Shown here in pieces: positions 7,649-37,051 of a DNA stretch of 37,377 nt; within the stretch, counting starts at the first letter, position 1, and every line of letters begins with the position of its first letter. The notes beneath the pieces were generated by a model. It was not told where the DNA came from. It did no database searches and was given only the letters and a program-made list of their open reading frames with translations. Both the position numbers and the translations under genes were made by a program. This DNA comes from a virus, in the IMG/VR virus record IMGVR_UViG_3300048908_000085, positions 1 through 37,377 of that record; one strand, written 5' to 3'.

Positions 7649-7725
7649 CCCGCTTCTTTCAGGACTAATACCGATTAACAGCCCGCTCTATGATCCCTAG
7701 CTGGCACACAAGAGAGGGAGCTGCT

Positions 7726-8367
7726 GTGAAATTTGAAATCAAGAACCGTCGTACAGGCGAGGTCATGTTCGCTGTTGACATGCCAGACGGCACCAAGGAC
7801 CCAGAGCGCTGGGCGCTGGTGATTGCTGGTCACAGGGGCGATAGGCAAAGCCCATACCTTATGGGGACTGACTTGCGCGAAGCTGATTTGCGCGGGGCGG
7901 ACTTGCGCAAAGCGAGGTTGATACGCGTAGACCTACGAGGCGCGGATTTGAGCGGGGCTGATCTTCGGCGAGCCAATTTAGCTTTAGCTGACCTTCGCGG
8001 CGCGTCTCTGTGTGATGCCGATTTGCGTGGGGCGCGCTTGCGGAAAGCTGACCTACGTGGTGCGCTTCTACGAGGTGCCAATCTGGGCGATTTGTCTTGC
8101 ATGCTCGACACGATTGGCAACATGAACGAAGTAAAGAGCATCCGGTGCGACAAGTGGGCGGTCACCTACACCGCGACTCACATGCAGATCGGTAGCCAGT
8201 ATCACAGCCTGGAACGGTGGTGGGCTTTCACTGACAAGCAAATCGATGCCATGGGATTTACGGTATTGGACTGGTGGCGTAGGTGGAAACCTGTGCTGCA
8301 AACAATCATTGCCATGGCACCGGGCGGCTATCCCTGGTGGGAAAAAGACGGACCTGATACCGATTAA
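7726..8367 (+). CDS. Pentapeptide-repeat protein, copy 1
   Basis: A 213-residue product from the GTG at 7726 with AGGGAG upstream; this start aligns with that of copy 2 ([10 protein letters not shown] versus K-R-E-I-K-N-R-W-T-G). About 15 A(D/N)LRG-type pentapeptides occupy the middle and should form a right-handed quadrilateral beta helix. A conserved C-terminal domain follows, with [18 protein letters not shown] and a WKPVL motif. Some pentapeptide proteins mimic DNA and protect or inhibit gyrase; that role is not shown here. The repeats are diverged at DNA level, unlike copy 2. Confidence 0.85.
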
Positions 8368-8383
8368 CAGAGAGAGGGAACCG

Positions 8384-9022
8384 ATGAAGCGCGAGATAAA
8401 AAACAGATGGACTGGCGCCGTGCTGTTCACGGCTGATGTGCCCGAAGGCACCGAGAGCGGCATGGTCGCCCGCGTGGCGCTGGAGCAGGCCGTGGAAGCT
8501 CGTGCCAACCTGGGCGGTGCCGACCTGCGCGGTGCCGACCTGCGCGATGCCTACCTGCGCGGTGCCGACCTGCGCGGTGCCGACCTGCGCGATGCCTACC
8601 TGGGCGGTGCCGACCTGCGCGGTGCCGACCTGCGCGGTGCCGACCTGCGCGATGCCTACCTGGGCGGTGCCGACCTGCGCGATGCCTACCTGCGCGGTGC
8701 CGACCTGCGCGGTGCCGACCTGCGCGATGCCTACCTGGGCGAACTGCGCAATATCTGGGGCGCCAGCGGCAACCTGCGCGAGATCAAGGCCATCCAGTGC
8801 GATACGTGGCCGGTCACTTACACCGCTACCCACATGCAGATCGGCTGCCAGTTCCACGGACTGGAGCGCTGGTGGGCGTTCACCGATGAGCAGATCGCCC
8901 GTATGGATTCGTTGGCGCTGGAATGGTGGCAGAAGTGGAAACCTGTGCTGCGCACGATCATCACCATGTCGCCGGCTGTTCCTGGTGGCGAGAAGCCTGC
9001 TGAGGATTCACATACCGATTAA
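8384..9022 (+). CDS. Pentapeptide-repeat protein, copy 2
   Basis: A 212-residue paralogue of the preceding gene, 16 nt downstream, with an AGAGGGA ribosome binding site. It has 16 pentapeptides drawn from only a few units ([20 protein letters not shown]), followed by the same C-terminal domain ([30 protein letters not shown]). Copy number of the DNA repeat can change in steps of 15 bp without loss of frame. A beta-helical protein interacting with a host enzyme is the usual expectation for this family; the target is unknown. Confidence 0.85.
   Translation: MKREIKNRWTGAVLFTADVPEGTESGMVARVALEQAVEARANLGGADLRGADLRDAYLRGADLRGADLRDAYLGGADLRGADLRGADLRDAYLGGADLRDAYLRGADLRGADLRDAYLGELRNIWGASGNLREIKAIQCDTWPVTYTATHMQIGCQFHGLERWWAFTDEQIARMDSLALEWWQKWKPVLRTIITMSPAVPGGEKPAEDSHTD
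8504..8743 (+). repeat. 15-bp tandem repeat with a 45-bp higher-order period
   Basis: Sixteen 15-bp units of the type GCCGACCTGCGCGGT, ordered mostly as triplets that form a 45-bp period. They encode the pentapeptides of copy 2. Near-identity of units contrasts with the diverged array in copy 1 and indicates recent expansion or conversion. Confidence 0.9.
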
Positions 9023-9035
9023 CAAGGAGAACAAG

Positions 9036-9377
9036 ATGCCGACTCTTCGATTCGAGGGCTACTCGGACGACACCTTTGGCGAAGTCCTCTATACGAAAGA
9101 CGACTTCGACAACTGCGCCAGCGGCGACCCAATTGAATATCTAGTCCTGAATCCGCGCAACGGGGATGGCGTTGTCGTCACTGGCCAGTACTGCCCCGGT
9201 ATGTCGGGCAGTTGGATGATCGGCGTGGCTAACTACGACCCCGATCTTGAAGACAAAGACTTCCCACGCTGGCCGATGAAGCTGGTTCCCCAGGACTACA
9301 GGAACGGCTTTCAGCCATCGCTCGAAATCGAAGCGCCGGAAGGTGTCGAGGTGAAATGCCTGACCCGCGGCGAATAG
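9036..9377 (+). CDS. Hypothetical protein, 113 aa
   Basis: ATG start with AAGGAG upstream and the third 13-bp repeat just before it. The product (MPTLRFEGYSDDTFGEVLYT at the start) is acidic with scattered aromatics, G-Q-Y-C-P-G-M-S-G-S-W in the middle and a proline-containing end. It looks like a small globular alpha/beta protein; no family recognised. It is the last gene before the structured non-coding stretch. Confidence 0.6.
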   Translation: MPTLRFEGYSDDTFGEVLYTKDDFDNCASGDPIEYLVLNPRNGDGVVVTGQYCPGMSGSWMIGVANYDPDLEDKDFPRWPMKLVPQDYRNGFQPSLEIEAPEGVEVKCLTRGE

Positions 9378-9497
9378 TAGTCCCTCCCCGCCTTCCAAGC
9401 CCAGCATCAATACCGCTCCGGATGCATACGGACGTGACGATGCTGGTGCCGTGAAGGTAGGAGTGCAGTACCTGACCCGGGCCAGGTTAAGCCCGGG

Positions 9498-9641
9498 ATC
9501 CTCATCAGACGGAACCCTGTAAGTAATGCAGCGCTTTGGCAACGCTGTATCTGACTTCATGTTTATACACGTGTGAAAACCTACGTCTAGGGTACGAAAA
9601 ACCGGGGCCTTACACCGGGCGGGGTTTCGTCTGATGAGGGT
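9498..9641 (+). ncRNA. Domain A of the structured RNA: 23-bp helix closing a multiway junction
   Basis: Bases 9498-9520 pair with 9619-9641 without interruption (23 pairs, four of them G-U). Inside are hairpins at 9526-9550 (eight pairs, loop of nine), 9556-9577 (seven pairs, three G-U), 9580-9591 (CCTA/TAGG) and 9602-9618 (CCGG/CCGG); the last abuts the closing helix. Confidence 0.6.
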
Positions 9642-9743
9642 AAAGCGCAGCCCAGCGCAAGCGCGGGAGCAGGTGCAGATGGCCCGTTCGATTCGGCCTA
9701 CCGCGTATGGGAATAGCCCTCATGACACCCCGGAAAGACGGGG

Positions 9744-9909
9744 ATCCTCAACCGAAGGGCAGACGGATGTGGCGTATCCGTGCGGCACGCTGAGTGCCGC
9801 GGCATGCCCCGAGGCTTGGCCGCTTGATCCGCCCCGCGACGGCGGGGATACACAGCGGTTTCAAGTTCATGCCTTTGCTGGTTCGACTCCAGCCCCTTCG
9901 GTTGAGGGT
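9744..9909 (+). ncRNA. Domain C of the structured RNA: tRNA-like five-way junction
   Basis: A 16-pair closing helix (9744-9759 with 9894-9909, one G-U) encloses ACGGAT/ATCCGT (9763-9781), GCGGCAC/GTGCCGC (9782-9800), a compound arm starting with GGCATG/CATGCC (9801-9806 with 9868-9873) and containing 9820-9824/9854-9858 and CCCCGC/GCGGGG (9832-9847), then GCTGG-TTCGACT-CCAGC (9877-9893). The last matches the T-arm consensus and directly abuts the closing helix, as T-arm and acceptor do in tRNA. It has no anticodon-like seven-base loop in the expected place. Confidence 0.6.
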
Positions 9910-10030
9910 AAGCAGTACCGCCCAGGCGATGGGCAGCGGGCTAGAAGTGGATCCACCCGTGCTAGGCAGTCTTACTACGCAAGCCGGATTCGTACCCGGC
10001 ACCCTCTTCATATACCTGATTGGAGATTAC

Positions 10031-10438
10031 ATGAACTCCCCTATCAAGCTGCCGCCGCTTCCCCAGGTGCCATGGCATCAGTTTGGCGGAGTGTGCGCCG
10101 ATTCGGTTGCCGCTGAGGCAATCAAGAACTATGCCACTGACTACGCCGAACAAGCTGCACGTGAAGCATTGGCGGTCTCGAATGGAGTGGATCTTCGGCC
10201 CATATTGGCGGACTTGCTGGCCTATGTTGACCTCAACACTTGCACACATGAAAACCGCCATAAGGCCGGCACGCTGTGGACTATCTGCGACGACTGCGGA
10301 CGCAAATGGGCCGCCGACCGAAATCCGTACAAGCGTCACCAAGATGCGCCGGCAGTTGCAGCCGCCCGCGCTGCCCTGGAGACTGCCCCTCCCAAGGAGA
10401 ACAACCATGCTGAAGGTGCTGATCAAGAACCTACTTAG
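10031..10438 (+). CDS. Hypothetical protein with a zinc-ribbon-like motif, 135 aa
   Basis: ATG at 10031 with TGGAGA upstream, immediately after the structured RNA. The N-terminus is proline-rich (MNSPIKLPPLPQVPWHQFGG), followed by an alanine-rich helix. A C-x-H and I-C-D-D-C-G-R-K-W-A pair at about 82-105 suggests a small metal-binding ribbon. Such proteins recur in early regions of betaproteobacterial phages without assigned function. Confidence 0.6.
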   Translation: MNSPIKLPPLPQVPWHQFGGVCADSVAAEAIKNYATDYAEQAAREALAVSNGVDLRPILADLLAYVDLNTCTHENRHKAGTLWTICDDCGRKWAADRNPYKRHQDAPAVAAARAALETAPPKENNHAEGADQEPT

Positions 10439-11648: not shown

Positions 11649-12263
11649 ATGGAAGTCTACAAGGCAATCAATGCCGTGCAGGCGGAACTCGCCAAGATCG
11701 GCATCAGCAAGGACCGCAGGAATACGCAAGGAGCCGGGTACAACTTCCGGGGCATTGACGACATCTACAACGCCCTGGCTCCGCTGCTGGCCGAAAAGGG
11801 GCTGTGCATCCTACCTCGCGTCCTCTCCCGCGAGTCGGTAGAACGCGTTAGCAAACAAGGCGGCGCGCTGTTCTACATCACGGTCGAAGCCGAATTCGAC
11901 TTCGTGTCCACGGCGGATGGCAGCAAGCACACCGTCAAGACGTTTGGCGAGGCGATGGACAGCGGTGACAAGGCCACCAACAAGGCAATGTCTGCCGCCT
12001 ACAAGTACGCCGCGTTCCAGGCGTTCTGCATCCCCACCGAGGGCGACAACGACGCGGACGGCCATACCCACCAAGTCGCGTCCGCGAACGACGACAGCCC
12101 AGCCGAGGCCGCCGAGATGGACGCCGAAGTCACCGCCCAGATGAATGCAGCGGCGTCTGTGCCGGACCTTGTAAAGATCATGAATAGCCTGACTGCCGAC
12201 CAAAAGCGCGCGGCCACGGCCCACTTCAACAAGCGCATGAGCGAACTCAAGAAGGCAGCGTAA
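11649..12263 (+). CDS. erf: ERF-family single-strand annealing recombinase
   Basis: A 204-residue ERF superfamily protein. Residues about 1-145 carry the family pattern: [40 protein letters not shown], and later [26 protein letters not shown] (from P22) anneals complementary single strands during phage recombination and circularisation. Its stop overlaps the SSB start (TAATG), and the Gp157-type gene follows, so the three form one recombination unit. The C-terminal 60 residues are acidic and variable, as usual for this family. Confidence 0.92.
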
Positions 12264-12604
12264 TGGCATCCGTCAACAAAGTCATCCTGATCGGCCACCT
12301 GGGCCGTGACCCCGAAACGCGCTATAGCCAGGACGGGAAAGCTGTTACCAACATGTCTTTGGCCACCACTTCGTCCTGGAAGGACAAAGGCACCGGGGAG
12401 AAGCGTGAAGAGACTGAGTGGCATCGCATTGTGGCGTATGACCGTCTCGCTGAGGTTATGGGCGAATTCTGTAAAAAGGGAAAGCAGGTCTACATCGAAG
12501 GCCGTCTGAAGACCCGCAAGTGGCAAGACAAGGACACCGGCGCTGACCGCTACAGCACCGAAATTGTCGCGGATCAGATGCAACTACTTGGAACCAAGGA
12601 GTGA
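12263..12604 (+). CDS. ssb: Single-stranded DNA-binding protein
   Basis: A 113-residue SSB with the full OB-fold pattern: [20 protein letters not shown], later [20 protein letters not shown] and the [11 protein letters not shown] block. It should coat single-stranded DNA for the ERF recombinase encoded just upstream. Unlike cellular SSBs it ends soon after the OB fold (QLLGTKE) and lacks both the Gly/Gln-rich linker and the acidic D-D-I-P-F tip that recruits host repair proteins. It overlaps the erf stop by TAATG. Confidence 0.95.
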
Positions 12605-16276: not shown

Positions 16277-16618
16277 ATGCTCAACGTCGCTGAAACTGCC
16301 GCCGCCCTGGGGGTGGCGCAGCGAACCGTCTATGATCTGGCCGCCCCAGGTGGCCCAATCCCGTGCCACCGCATCGGGCGCCGAATCCTTTTCTCTCAGT
16401 CAGACCTGGCGGAGTACCTAGCATCATGCCGATATACCGAGATAAAACGCGCGGTTGCCTCGTCTTTGAATTCGACCGTCTCATTGAAGGAAACCGGGTC
16501 CGCGCTCGAAAAGCTCTTCCAAAGTCGTGGAGTAAAGCCCAAGCTGACGCCTACGACCGCCAAGAGTCGGCGCGACTCTACGCGCTTGCAACTCGTGTCG
16601 AACGCCCGCAATTCCTGA
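16277..16618 (+). CDS. xis: Excisionase-type helix-turn-helix protein
   Basis: A 113-residue frame with GGAGG before the ATG. The first 50 residues (NVAETAAALGVAQRTVYDLA, then CHRIGRRILFSQSDLAEYL) form a MerR/AlpA-like winged helix of the kind used by phage excisionases to bend attL/attR DNA. The last 60 residues lie in the 193-nt overlap with the integrase gene and are Ser/Thr/Lys-rich without recognisable fold. Position directly upstream of int supports the call; a role as AlpA-like activator is an alternative. Confidence 0.75.
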   Translation: MLNVAETAAALGVAQRTVYDLAAPGGPIPCHRIGRRILFSQSDLAEYLASCRYTEIKRAVASSLNSTVSLKETGSALEKLFQSRGVKPKLTPTTAKSRRDSTRLQLVSNARNS

Positions 16619-17421
16619 TTGAGGATGCCGTAGCCATCTACGTCAAGGAGCGGGTTGGCAAGCTGAAATCCGGGGACAACATAGTCCGAGAGCTGGCCCA
16701 GATGATGTGGGCCTACAAGGACAAGCCCATGGGCGCCCTACCGGATGTCTGCCGAGAGTATGCCGAAAAGGCCCTACATGAGCAGACTGGGGAACCTCTG
16801 TCGCCAGCTACCAAGCGAAATCGCATCCGGTATCTGACCAGTGCCTGCCGCTGGGGGTGGAAACGCCATGGGATGCACGACCGGGACCCGGCTGAACGGG
16901 TAATCGCTCCAGAGGTAAGGAACGAACGCCGGCACTACGTTGACCGCGCTGGCATGCTGGCCATCGCCCGGGCCTGCAAGTGCAGGAAGTCACGAGCAGC
17001 TATCCGTATCGCCTTCTATAGTGGGATGCGCCTGAGCGAGGTTTTGGAGGCCCAGCGGGTAGACGGGATGTTCCTGCTGGAAGACACCAAGAACGGCGAG
17101 CCTCGCCATGTCCCGATGCACCCGAAGATACGAGCCGCGGCCAAAGTATCGGCGCGCAACAAGTGGAACGTGTCCAAGGAATTCAAGAAGGCCGCCATCG
17201 CAGTAGGGATGGGCCATCTGCGCTTTCACGACCTGCGGCATAGTGCCGCCAGCGCCATGATCAACGCCAACGTGAACCTGTACACAGTAGGTGCGGTCCT
17301 GGGGCACAAGTCTGCGGCCAGCACCAAGCGCTACAGTCATCTAGCGACTGAGTCGATCAAACAAGCACTCGGGGAGATTGGCAAAAAATCCCCCACGCAA
17401 AAGAAAGCGCGGGTTGCGTAA
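16426..17421 (+). CDS. int: Tyrosine-type site-specific integrase
   Basis: A 331-residue protein from the ATG at 16426 (a longer form from 16363 is less likely). The arm-binding N-terminus is MPIYRDKTRGCLVFEFDRL; the catalytic domain shows SGMRLSEV (first Arg), HDLRHSAAS (His-x-x-Arg), LGHKS (second His) and TKRYSHL (Tyr nucleophile). It recombines attP, located just downstream, with a host tRNA gene. The xis frame overlaps its start extensively, so the two are probably translationally linked. Confidence 0.93.
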   Translation: MPIYRDKTRGCLVFEFDRLIEGNRVRARKALPKSWSKAQADAYDRQESARLYALATRVERPQFLIEDAVAIYVKERVGKLKSGDNIVRELAQMMWAYKDKPMGALPDVCREYAEKALHEQTGEPLSPATKRNRIRYLTSACRWGWKRHGMHDRDPAERVIAPEVRNERRHYVDRAGMLAIARACKCRKSRAAIRIAFYSGMRLSEVLEAQRVDGMFLLEDTKNGEPRHVPMHPKIRAAAKVSARNKWNVSKEFKKAAIAVGMGHLRFHDLRHSAASAMINANVNLYTVGAVLGHKSAASTKRYSHLATESIKQALGEIGKKSPTQKKARVA

Positions 17422-36460: not shown

Positions 36461-36468
36461 GTGCCTTA

Positions 36469-36562
36469 GCGAGTATTAGGCTGCCGCCTGCAAGGTAAGC
36501 GCCTTGGGACAGTGGAGGAGCGGGCTTGAAGCGCGTTCCCGAGGCGGCAGTCTGATACTCGC
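36469..36562. other. 94-nt structured element with a 21-pair stem, candidate packaging site or small RNA
   Basis: Bases 36469-36489 pair with 36542-36562: 21 contiguous positions with two G-U (or two mismatches in DNA). The arms share GCGAGTAT and CTGCCGCCT with their complements. The 52-nt interior holds a further hairpin (CAAGG/CCTTG, 36491-36506). It lies in the 113-bp gap between two small genes, immediately upstream of the terminase genes, where pac or cos sites are usually found. Confidence 0.6.
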
Positions 36563-36573
36563 GTTTGGTTGAA

Positions 36574-36885: not shown

Positions 36886-36980
36886 ATGAATTGAGGTGGG
36901 ATTCGAACCCGTACCGGACTCCTCTCAGCTAACTATGGCGCCTGTCCGTTTGCCTTTCGACTTTCAGCGAGCCACCTAGG
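36886..36980 (-). other. tRNA-like remnant in the late leader
   Basis: On the minus strand GGG-TTCGAAT-CCC resembles a T-arm core, followed by ACCTC, which can pair with AGGTGG near the 5' end. Stem lengths do not fit a canonical tRNA: the T-stem has only three direct pairs and no anticodon arm is clear. No CCA is encoded. Confidence 0.35.
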
Positions 36981-37051
36981 CCGTAGCTGCGGCCCCTCGC
37001 CTCTCAATTCTGCTGACTGCGCAAGTGACACTTACACAGCCTGCACTTATC

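Follow-up and report, generated by a model that had tools for sequence, protein, structure and literature searches.

The question raised by this locus is what a phage keeps in some 600 nucleotides between two of its genes, if not a protein-coding sequence. The window that we analysed is the whole of a virus record, IMGVR_UViG_3300048908_000085, with a length of 37,377 bases. Its terminase, portal and tail genes lie on the - strand. An Erf-like annealing protein is encoded on the + strand (11649-12263), and so are two products that, judged from their sequences, read as an SSB (12263-12604) and as an integrase (16363-17421). The element under study, 9386-10008, is also on the + strand and fills the space from the stop of the gene at 9036-9377 to the start codon at 10031. 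The original prediction held that 9401-10005 contains no credible gene, and we agree: the longer open reading frames that cross the region (9141-9560 and 9748-10011 on the - strand, 9634-10116 and 9794-10438 on the + strand) are without visible support. The element is non-coding. Upstream of it, at 7690-9022, two adjacent genes with pentapeptide-like repeats (ADLRG) and related flanks are apparently the result of a duplication.

The region is also structured. The minimum free energy of 9378-10030 is -302.8 kcal/mol, as against -248.5 +/- 6.6 for dinucleotide shuffles (z -8.2), and for 9386-10008, re-tested with 60 shuffles, z is -6.5 (+ strand) and -4.8 (- strand). When the whole window is scanned for folding in sliding stretches of 300 nt, 9451-9750 takes the second rank. 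The lowest fold z of the whole record, -5.6, belongs to the 300 bases from 36301, and at 36465-36570 an inverted repeat of about 20 bp surrounds a 60-base loop. Within the element, the three sub-domains with the z-scores of -5.3, -6.3 and -6.9 in Table 1 fold far below their shuffles, whereas the stretches that come after the long helices are ordinary (9637-9722, z +0.5; 9903-10008, z -0.8). The earlier description of the region as densely folded is thus right for the element overall, but it does not extend to all of it, because these two stretches are no more stable than shuffled sequence.

How is this RNA built? It consists of two tandem units, a and b, each made of a hairpin, a long closing helix (20 bp in the first, 16 bp in the second) and tRNA-like domains. 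Direct repeats D1, D2 and D5 indicate that unit a follows the plan of unit b; its hairpin occupies the position of the GAAAGA hairpin and has a different loop. Both long-range helices that had been proposed are present: the first, thought to have 23 pairs, has 20 by eye (9498-9517 with 9622-9641; the repeat search gave 18 nt at 94%), and the second has the expected 16 (9744-9759 with 9894-9909). The T-arm-like hairpins are there as well, one of them being a canonical T-arm. A tandem design resembling that of the window is seen in L030.

Table 1. Features of the element at 9386-10008 and the basis on which each was placed
Feature	Positions	Strand	Basis
5' element, compound hairpin ahead of unit a	9386-9457	+	z -5.3, 60 shuffles
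Unit a hairpin, CCCGGGC-CAGGTTAA-GCCCGGG behind TGAC	9473-9497	+	fold; position by direct repeats D1 and D2
Unit a closing helix, ATCCTCATCAGACGGAACCC / GGGTTTCGTCTGATGAGGGT, with inner domain	9498-9641	+	inverted repeat I1; z -6.3 for 9471-9645
Possible second domain of unit a (weak), GAGGGT to CCCTCA	9636-9722	+	strands by eye; z +0.5; model R1 without match
Unit b hairpin, TGACA-CCCCG-GAAAGA-CGGGG, conserved signature	9723-9743	+	exact matches elsewhere; covariation; sole copy in window
Unit b 16-bp closing helix, ATCCTCAACCGAAGGG / CCCTTCGGTTGAGGGT, with tRNA-like domain	9744-9909	+	helix tests; z -6.9 for 9723-9911
Canonical T-arm, GCTGG-TTCGACT-CCAGC	9877-9893	+	abuts 3' strand of unit b helix (9894), no linker
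Second tRNA-like domain of unit b (K type), acceptor GAGGGT/ACCCTC	9903-10007	+	top match of model R1; z -0.8
K-domain arm of unit b, GCCC-AGGCGAT-GGGC	9920-9934	+	
K-domain arm of unit b, GCCGG-ATTCGTAC-CCGGC	9983-10000	+	

The suspicion that the element fits no known class agrees with the catalogues, since a scan of the window with the whole Rfam library at the gathering score gave no match. Scanning the region at E up to 10 brought weak matches only, the best of them Tymo_tRNA-like (RF00233) at 9825-9920 with E 0.61; int-alpA (E 8) was rejected as a match of the region, and the GOLLD and ROOL models matched in neither scan. No tRNA is found in the window by ARAGORN or by the Rfam tRNA model. 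At ordinary thresholds, blastn of the element gives no match in phages or E. coli (plasmids match the upstream gene only), the relatives reached through the neighbouring protein (L002-L025) have no nucleotide similarity to the RNA, and these searches found no nucleotide-level relative of the element as a whole. Two comparisons were dropped, namely the likeness of GGAAAGAC to a segment of 23S rRNA, which is too short, and that to a boxB-like antitermination hairpin, in which loop and flank differ.

What does recur elsewhere is the hairpin of unit b, with its exact GACA, 5-bp stem and GAAAGA loop (9724-9743). The hairpin family was first seen from a 24-nt blastn match with E 0.05. With E values up to 10 admitted, exact 21-24-nt matches to the sequence around 9722-9745 appear in unrelated phages (Xanthomonas FoX2 and FoX5, zth2-2 and two spring-water phages), and tRNA genes are close to the matched site in FoX2 and ct7L0027. 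The pattern TGACANCCNGGAAAGACNGG is present in many unrelated viral contigs among the matches listed, and the exact 21-mer TGACACCCCGGAAAGACGGGG in 15 genomes spread over many phyla (Roseateles, Chromobacterium, Kamptonema, Flavobacteriaceae, Clostridiales and a Pacearchaeota bin are among them); we estimate that about 0.1 matches would be expected by chance. Two position pairs that the pattern leaves unconstrained are paired in 132 and 129 of 132 distinct copies, with all four Watson-Crick types represented. Among the control loops, GAGAGA alone also accompanies the GACA flank to any degree.

The surroundings of the hairpin tell on which molecule it is likely to act. Hairpins avoid open reading frames (29 of 183 lie inside one, where 103 are expected), and the gene that follows is mostly on the same strand (133:40), a test that uses crude ORF calls and is supporting only. 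Among 300 hairpins, canonical T-arms at a distance of up to 250 nt were found 60 times on the hairpin strand and once on the other, and the start of a tRNA gene lies 4-16 nt behind the hairpin in 16 cases, compared with 2 of 900 random windows. The elements of this family are strand-specific, and they are co-located with true tRNA genes; a CCA end was not seen as a rule. It could be argued that the conserved object is DNA, for instance a hairpin acting in its single-stranded form, given that the motif is short, has a fixed flank, and that the - strand of our element folds too. However, the strand bias of the T-arms, the orientation of the next gene and the fixed distance to tRNA genes are properties of an RNA strand, and for this reason we regard a DNA-level role as extremely improbable. 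Directly behind a GAAAGA hairpin, L085 (2795-2860) and L078 (4460-4500) have short tRNA-like genes that lack an anticodon arm; the one in L085 scores 48.6 bits with the Rfam tRNA model, so annotation pipelines may call such genes tRNAs.

The closing helix is the next part of the unit. For 56 of 282 hairpins there is a strong helix whose 5' strand starts close behind; shuffles gave 41 of 2820, a count of the cases in which the best of 10 shuffles came up to the threshold. Its sequence varies widely (ACCATCATCGGGTCGG, ACCTTCATAGAAGCGG, GCCATCACAGATAGGG and, in the window, ATCCTCAACCGAAGGG), each time together with its complement. When 32 phage sequences are aligned, that of the window included, 13 of 14 pairs of the helix have changes on both sides, 99.3% of the cells pair, and none of 500 shuffles reaches this level of covariation; a shift of the alignment by one column brings pairing down to about 40%. 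These members were chosen for having the helix, hence the 132-copy hairpin test and the count of 56 in 282 are the fairer ones. The original prediction named compensatory changes in the two long helices as the support to look for. For 9744-9909 the outcome is strongly positive, at the level of the family; by analogy such support may extend to 9498-9641, the outer pairs of which are the same.

The domain that the helix encloses is tRNA-like in geometry. Of 38 members, 13 (including the window) have a 5-bp arm directly against the 3' strand of the helix, compared with 13% at random interior positions; in the window, L038, L305 and L381 this arm carries a canonical T-loop. L381 has what looks from its sequence like a tRNA body set on an acceptor of 16 bp, and in L324 and L431 the closing helix contains a body of the K type, which we describe below. 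The second arm of the inner domain of unit b folds with a 5-nt loop, GCTGA, and not with a 7-nt anticodon loop. At the other end of the window, on the - strand at 36890-37010, there is another tRNA-like domain, with T-loop GGGTTCGAATCCC and outer helix GAATTGAG/CTCAATTC, which ARAGORN does not call; it is followed by a strong terminator-like hairpin and lies ahead of the late genes of that strand. It is possibly another member of the family, in a late leader.

Is the element, then, a decayed cluster of tRNA genes, formerly functional and now drifting? T-arms without a callable tRNA, and the genuine tRNA genes that other phages have behind this hairpin, could be read in this way. But unrelated phages maintain the helices and loops through covarying changes, some loops being invariant, which means selection on structure, and the window folds far below shuffles. 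We therefore believe that decay is the wrong explanation, and a highly unlikely one, while the kinship with tRNA that it implied is real, as seen from the tRNA-like domains and from the tRNA genes in the same slot. A different use of tRNA geometry would be a decoy to divert host enzymes or defence nucleases that act on tRNA; a decoding anticodon loop is missing from the units, and their wide spread among phages is in keeping with such a role. Anticodon nucleases, however, require just the part that is absent, and we consider decoys decidedly unlikely. If the units were decoys after all, they would represent a new RNA-based counter-defence.

The second module of the unit, the K domain, is marked by the conserved pieces GAATGCGCAGGCTGATGCGC and GCCGGAGATCAGCACCGGC, which are present in many viral contigs among the matches listed and occur in the same loci in a fixed order. 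Among 78 units, for which pairing was not a criterion of choice, the acceptor is of 7 bp: positions 1-7 pair in 94-100%, and the next three in 64, 42 and 23%. Next come the linker AA and a 4-bp arm and, after a variable stretch, a 5-bp T-like arm that abuts the acceptor. This is the plan of a tRNA minus the anticodon arm, and the shortest units have about 66 nt. The stems covary, and 6 nt of the loop AG-GCUGAU are complementary to the loop AG-AUCAGC-A (102 units), with compensating variants GGUGAU/AUCACC (L163), UGUGAU/AUCACA (L398) and ACUGAU/AUCAGU (L377, L408); the variants were read by eye from the sequences, and the automatic loop picker cut some loops short. A query with the K core matched 193 phage records and 941 of 5426 E. 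coli genomes, and most of its sites among the matches listed have no annotated feature.

In the window itself this module scores weakly. Model R1, which was built without the window, has its top match on both strands of the 37 kb at the expected place in unit b, with 13 bits and E 0.091, compared to 39.8 bits for L163 and 79.3 bits for the E. coli HS prophage; on the second domain of unit a it gave no match. The K loops of the window offer 4 contiguous kissing pairs, GCGA with UCGU (4-5 are possible), and a run of 4 is not unlikely by chance. At 2264-2579 of Pseudomonas phage PS-1 (L369), a K unit has Rfam Proteo-phage-1 (63.7 bits) immediately upstream, and the two may be parts of one RNA.

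Loop-loop contacts might also serve to assemble tandem domains into a scaffold or cage, in which case the element would be a large trans-acting RNA like GOLLD or ROOL and its likeness to tRNA merely architectural. Its size, the phage setting and the nearness to tRNA genes are as in those RNAs (PMC12286853), and the conserved hairpin loops could contact other molecules. We nevertheless find this improbable: many members consist of one small unit, their kissing loops are complementary within that single unit, and there is no Rfam match.

The two domains of a unit are connected in a particular way. Many units have a strand, S2, with a complement on either side, S1 ahead of it and S3 behind it, an example being TGATGGTG with ACCATCA and CACCATCA; in the window, S2 TGAGGGT is complementary to ATCCTCA and ACCCTC. 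Since S1 and S3 share sequence, S2 can pair with either but not fully with both. The helices S1:S2 and S2:S3 are thus partly exclusive, and either the RNA switches or the helices form at different times. The pooled test of the shared strand is moderate, with 14 of 54 units beating all of their own shuffles. A triad of this kind is present at 44787-44941 in the Q-S leader of phage lambda (L370, NC_001416), with CACAAC at 44787, GTTGTGCTG at 44857 and CAGCACAAC at 44933. The E. coli HS prophage has its K unit at this same location; the K model gives no match on the lambda leader. STnc100, which is reported to lie near Pas prophage sRNAs (PMC13192938), was rejected for the HS and lambda leaders, as neither of them matches it.

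From the shared strand in so many units and in lambda, and from several units that end just before a Shine-Dalgarno site, one may suppose that the element is a switch acting in cis, in which the choice between S1/S2 and S2/S3 pairing in a leader controls translation or transcription of the downstream gene. Yet the downstream genes are of no single kind, and a switch leaves the tRNA genes in the same slot unexplained. In our opinion, this is rather unlikely to be the role of the element.

The explanation that we prefer makes the element one member, with two units in tandem, of an uncatalogued and widespread family of tRNA-like phage RNAs that is processed by the tRNA machinery of the host. As a whole statement we think it is probably correct. 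That an uncatalogued phage RNA family with tRNA-like domains exists, with the structure described above, we put forward with high confidence; the mechanism of processing is a tentative proposal. It would work as follows. The element presumably belongs to the + strand transcript of the early genes. Each unit has, in this order, a hairpin at its 5' end (often UGACA-stem-GAAAGA), a tRNA-like domain that S1/S2 closes and a second one closed by S2/S3, and the choice between the two pairings would select which domain forms. Host tRNA enzymes, RNase P above all, would recognise the stacked acceptor and T-arm. Their cleavage would free the RNA from the operon transcript and create new mRNA ends, and the 5' hairpin, a few nucleotides ahead of the acceptor, may cap the 3' end of the upstream mRNA. 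We propose cutting by tRNA enzymes because of the tRNA geometry, because true tRNAs occupy the same slot at a near-fixed distance, and because the flanking genes are mostly co-oriented. Certain observations speak against our explanation: the K match in the window is weak (in both E value and fold z), no K domain was recovered in unit a, T-arms lie near only 60 of 300 hairpins, and a CCA end is not the rule. The moderate outcome of the shared-strand test, the choice of the 32 aligned members for their helix and the lack of nucleotide-level relatives of the whole element among the matches also count against it. A broader version is doubtful in our view; it would posit a pan-phage superfamily in which tandem tRNA mimics share S2 and so form bistable switches, host tRNA machinery cuts and caps operon transcripts, and a relative resides in the lambda Q-S leader.

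The hairpin is widespread among the matches listed and the K module is present in 193 phage records and in about one sixth of complete E. coli genomes, so a common part of phage transcripts seems to have been overlooked. If RNase P or other host tRNA enzymes do read the units, phages use tRNA mimicry for mRNA processing. The role is directly testable because the units are short, covary, and are present in coliphages and E. coli prophages. Exact core sequences and targeted searches returned no description in the open-access literature, subscription papers and preprints being mostly outside that scope; the RNA family of hairpin, closing helix and K domain appears to be undescribed, though a description may exist.

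As a kind, tRNA-like structures are known, and the element of the window belongs there, while its family is absent from Rfam. The tRNA-like structures of plant viruses (RF00233), the best sub-threshold Rfam match, are likewise viral RNAs that mimic tRNA; the match is far under the gathering score, and they stand at genome 3' ends, whereas our element is inside an operon of a DNA phage. Proteo-phage-1 (RF03044) is also an intergenic RNA of phages and adjoins a K unit in PS-1, but it is a distinct element whose consensus differs, and the window has no match to it. The lambda leader from Q to the holin gene S shares the S1/S2/S3 triad and differs in having no match to the K model. GOLLD and ROOL, which phages and prophages carry close to tRNA genes, are large folded RNAs of unknown function (PMC12286853). 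The original prediction compared the element to them, which holds for setting and size; it does not hold for architecture, since the family is modular, made of short units with a GAAAGA hairpin, and the element has no match to their Rfam models. With phage tRNAs (RF00005) the element shares the T-arm stacked on the acceptor, and its family shares the 7-bp acceptor, 2-nt linker and 5-bp T-like arm of the K domain and the slot behind the hairpin, which tRNA genes occupy as well. Unlike these tRNAs, the element is not called as one, has closing helices of 16-20 bp and has no 7-nt anticodon loop; its family has kissing loops instead of the D/T contact and shares a strand between tandem domains.
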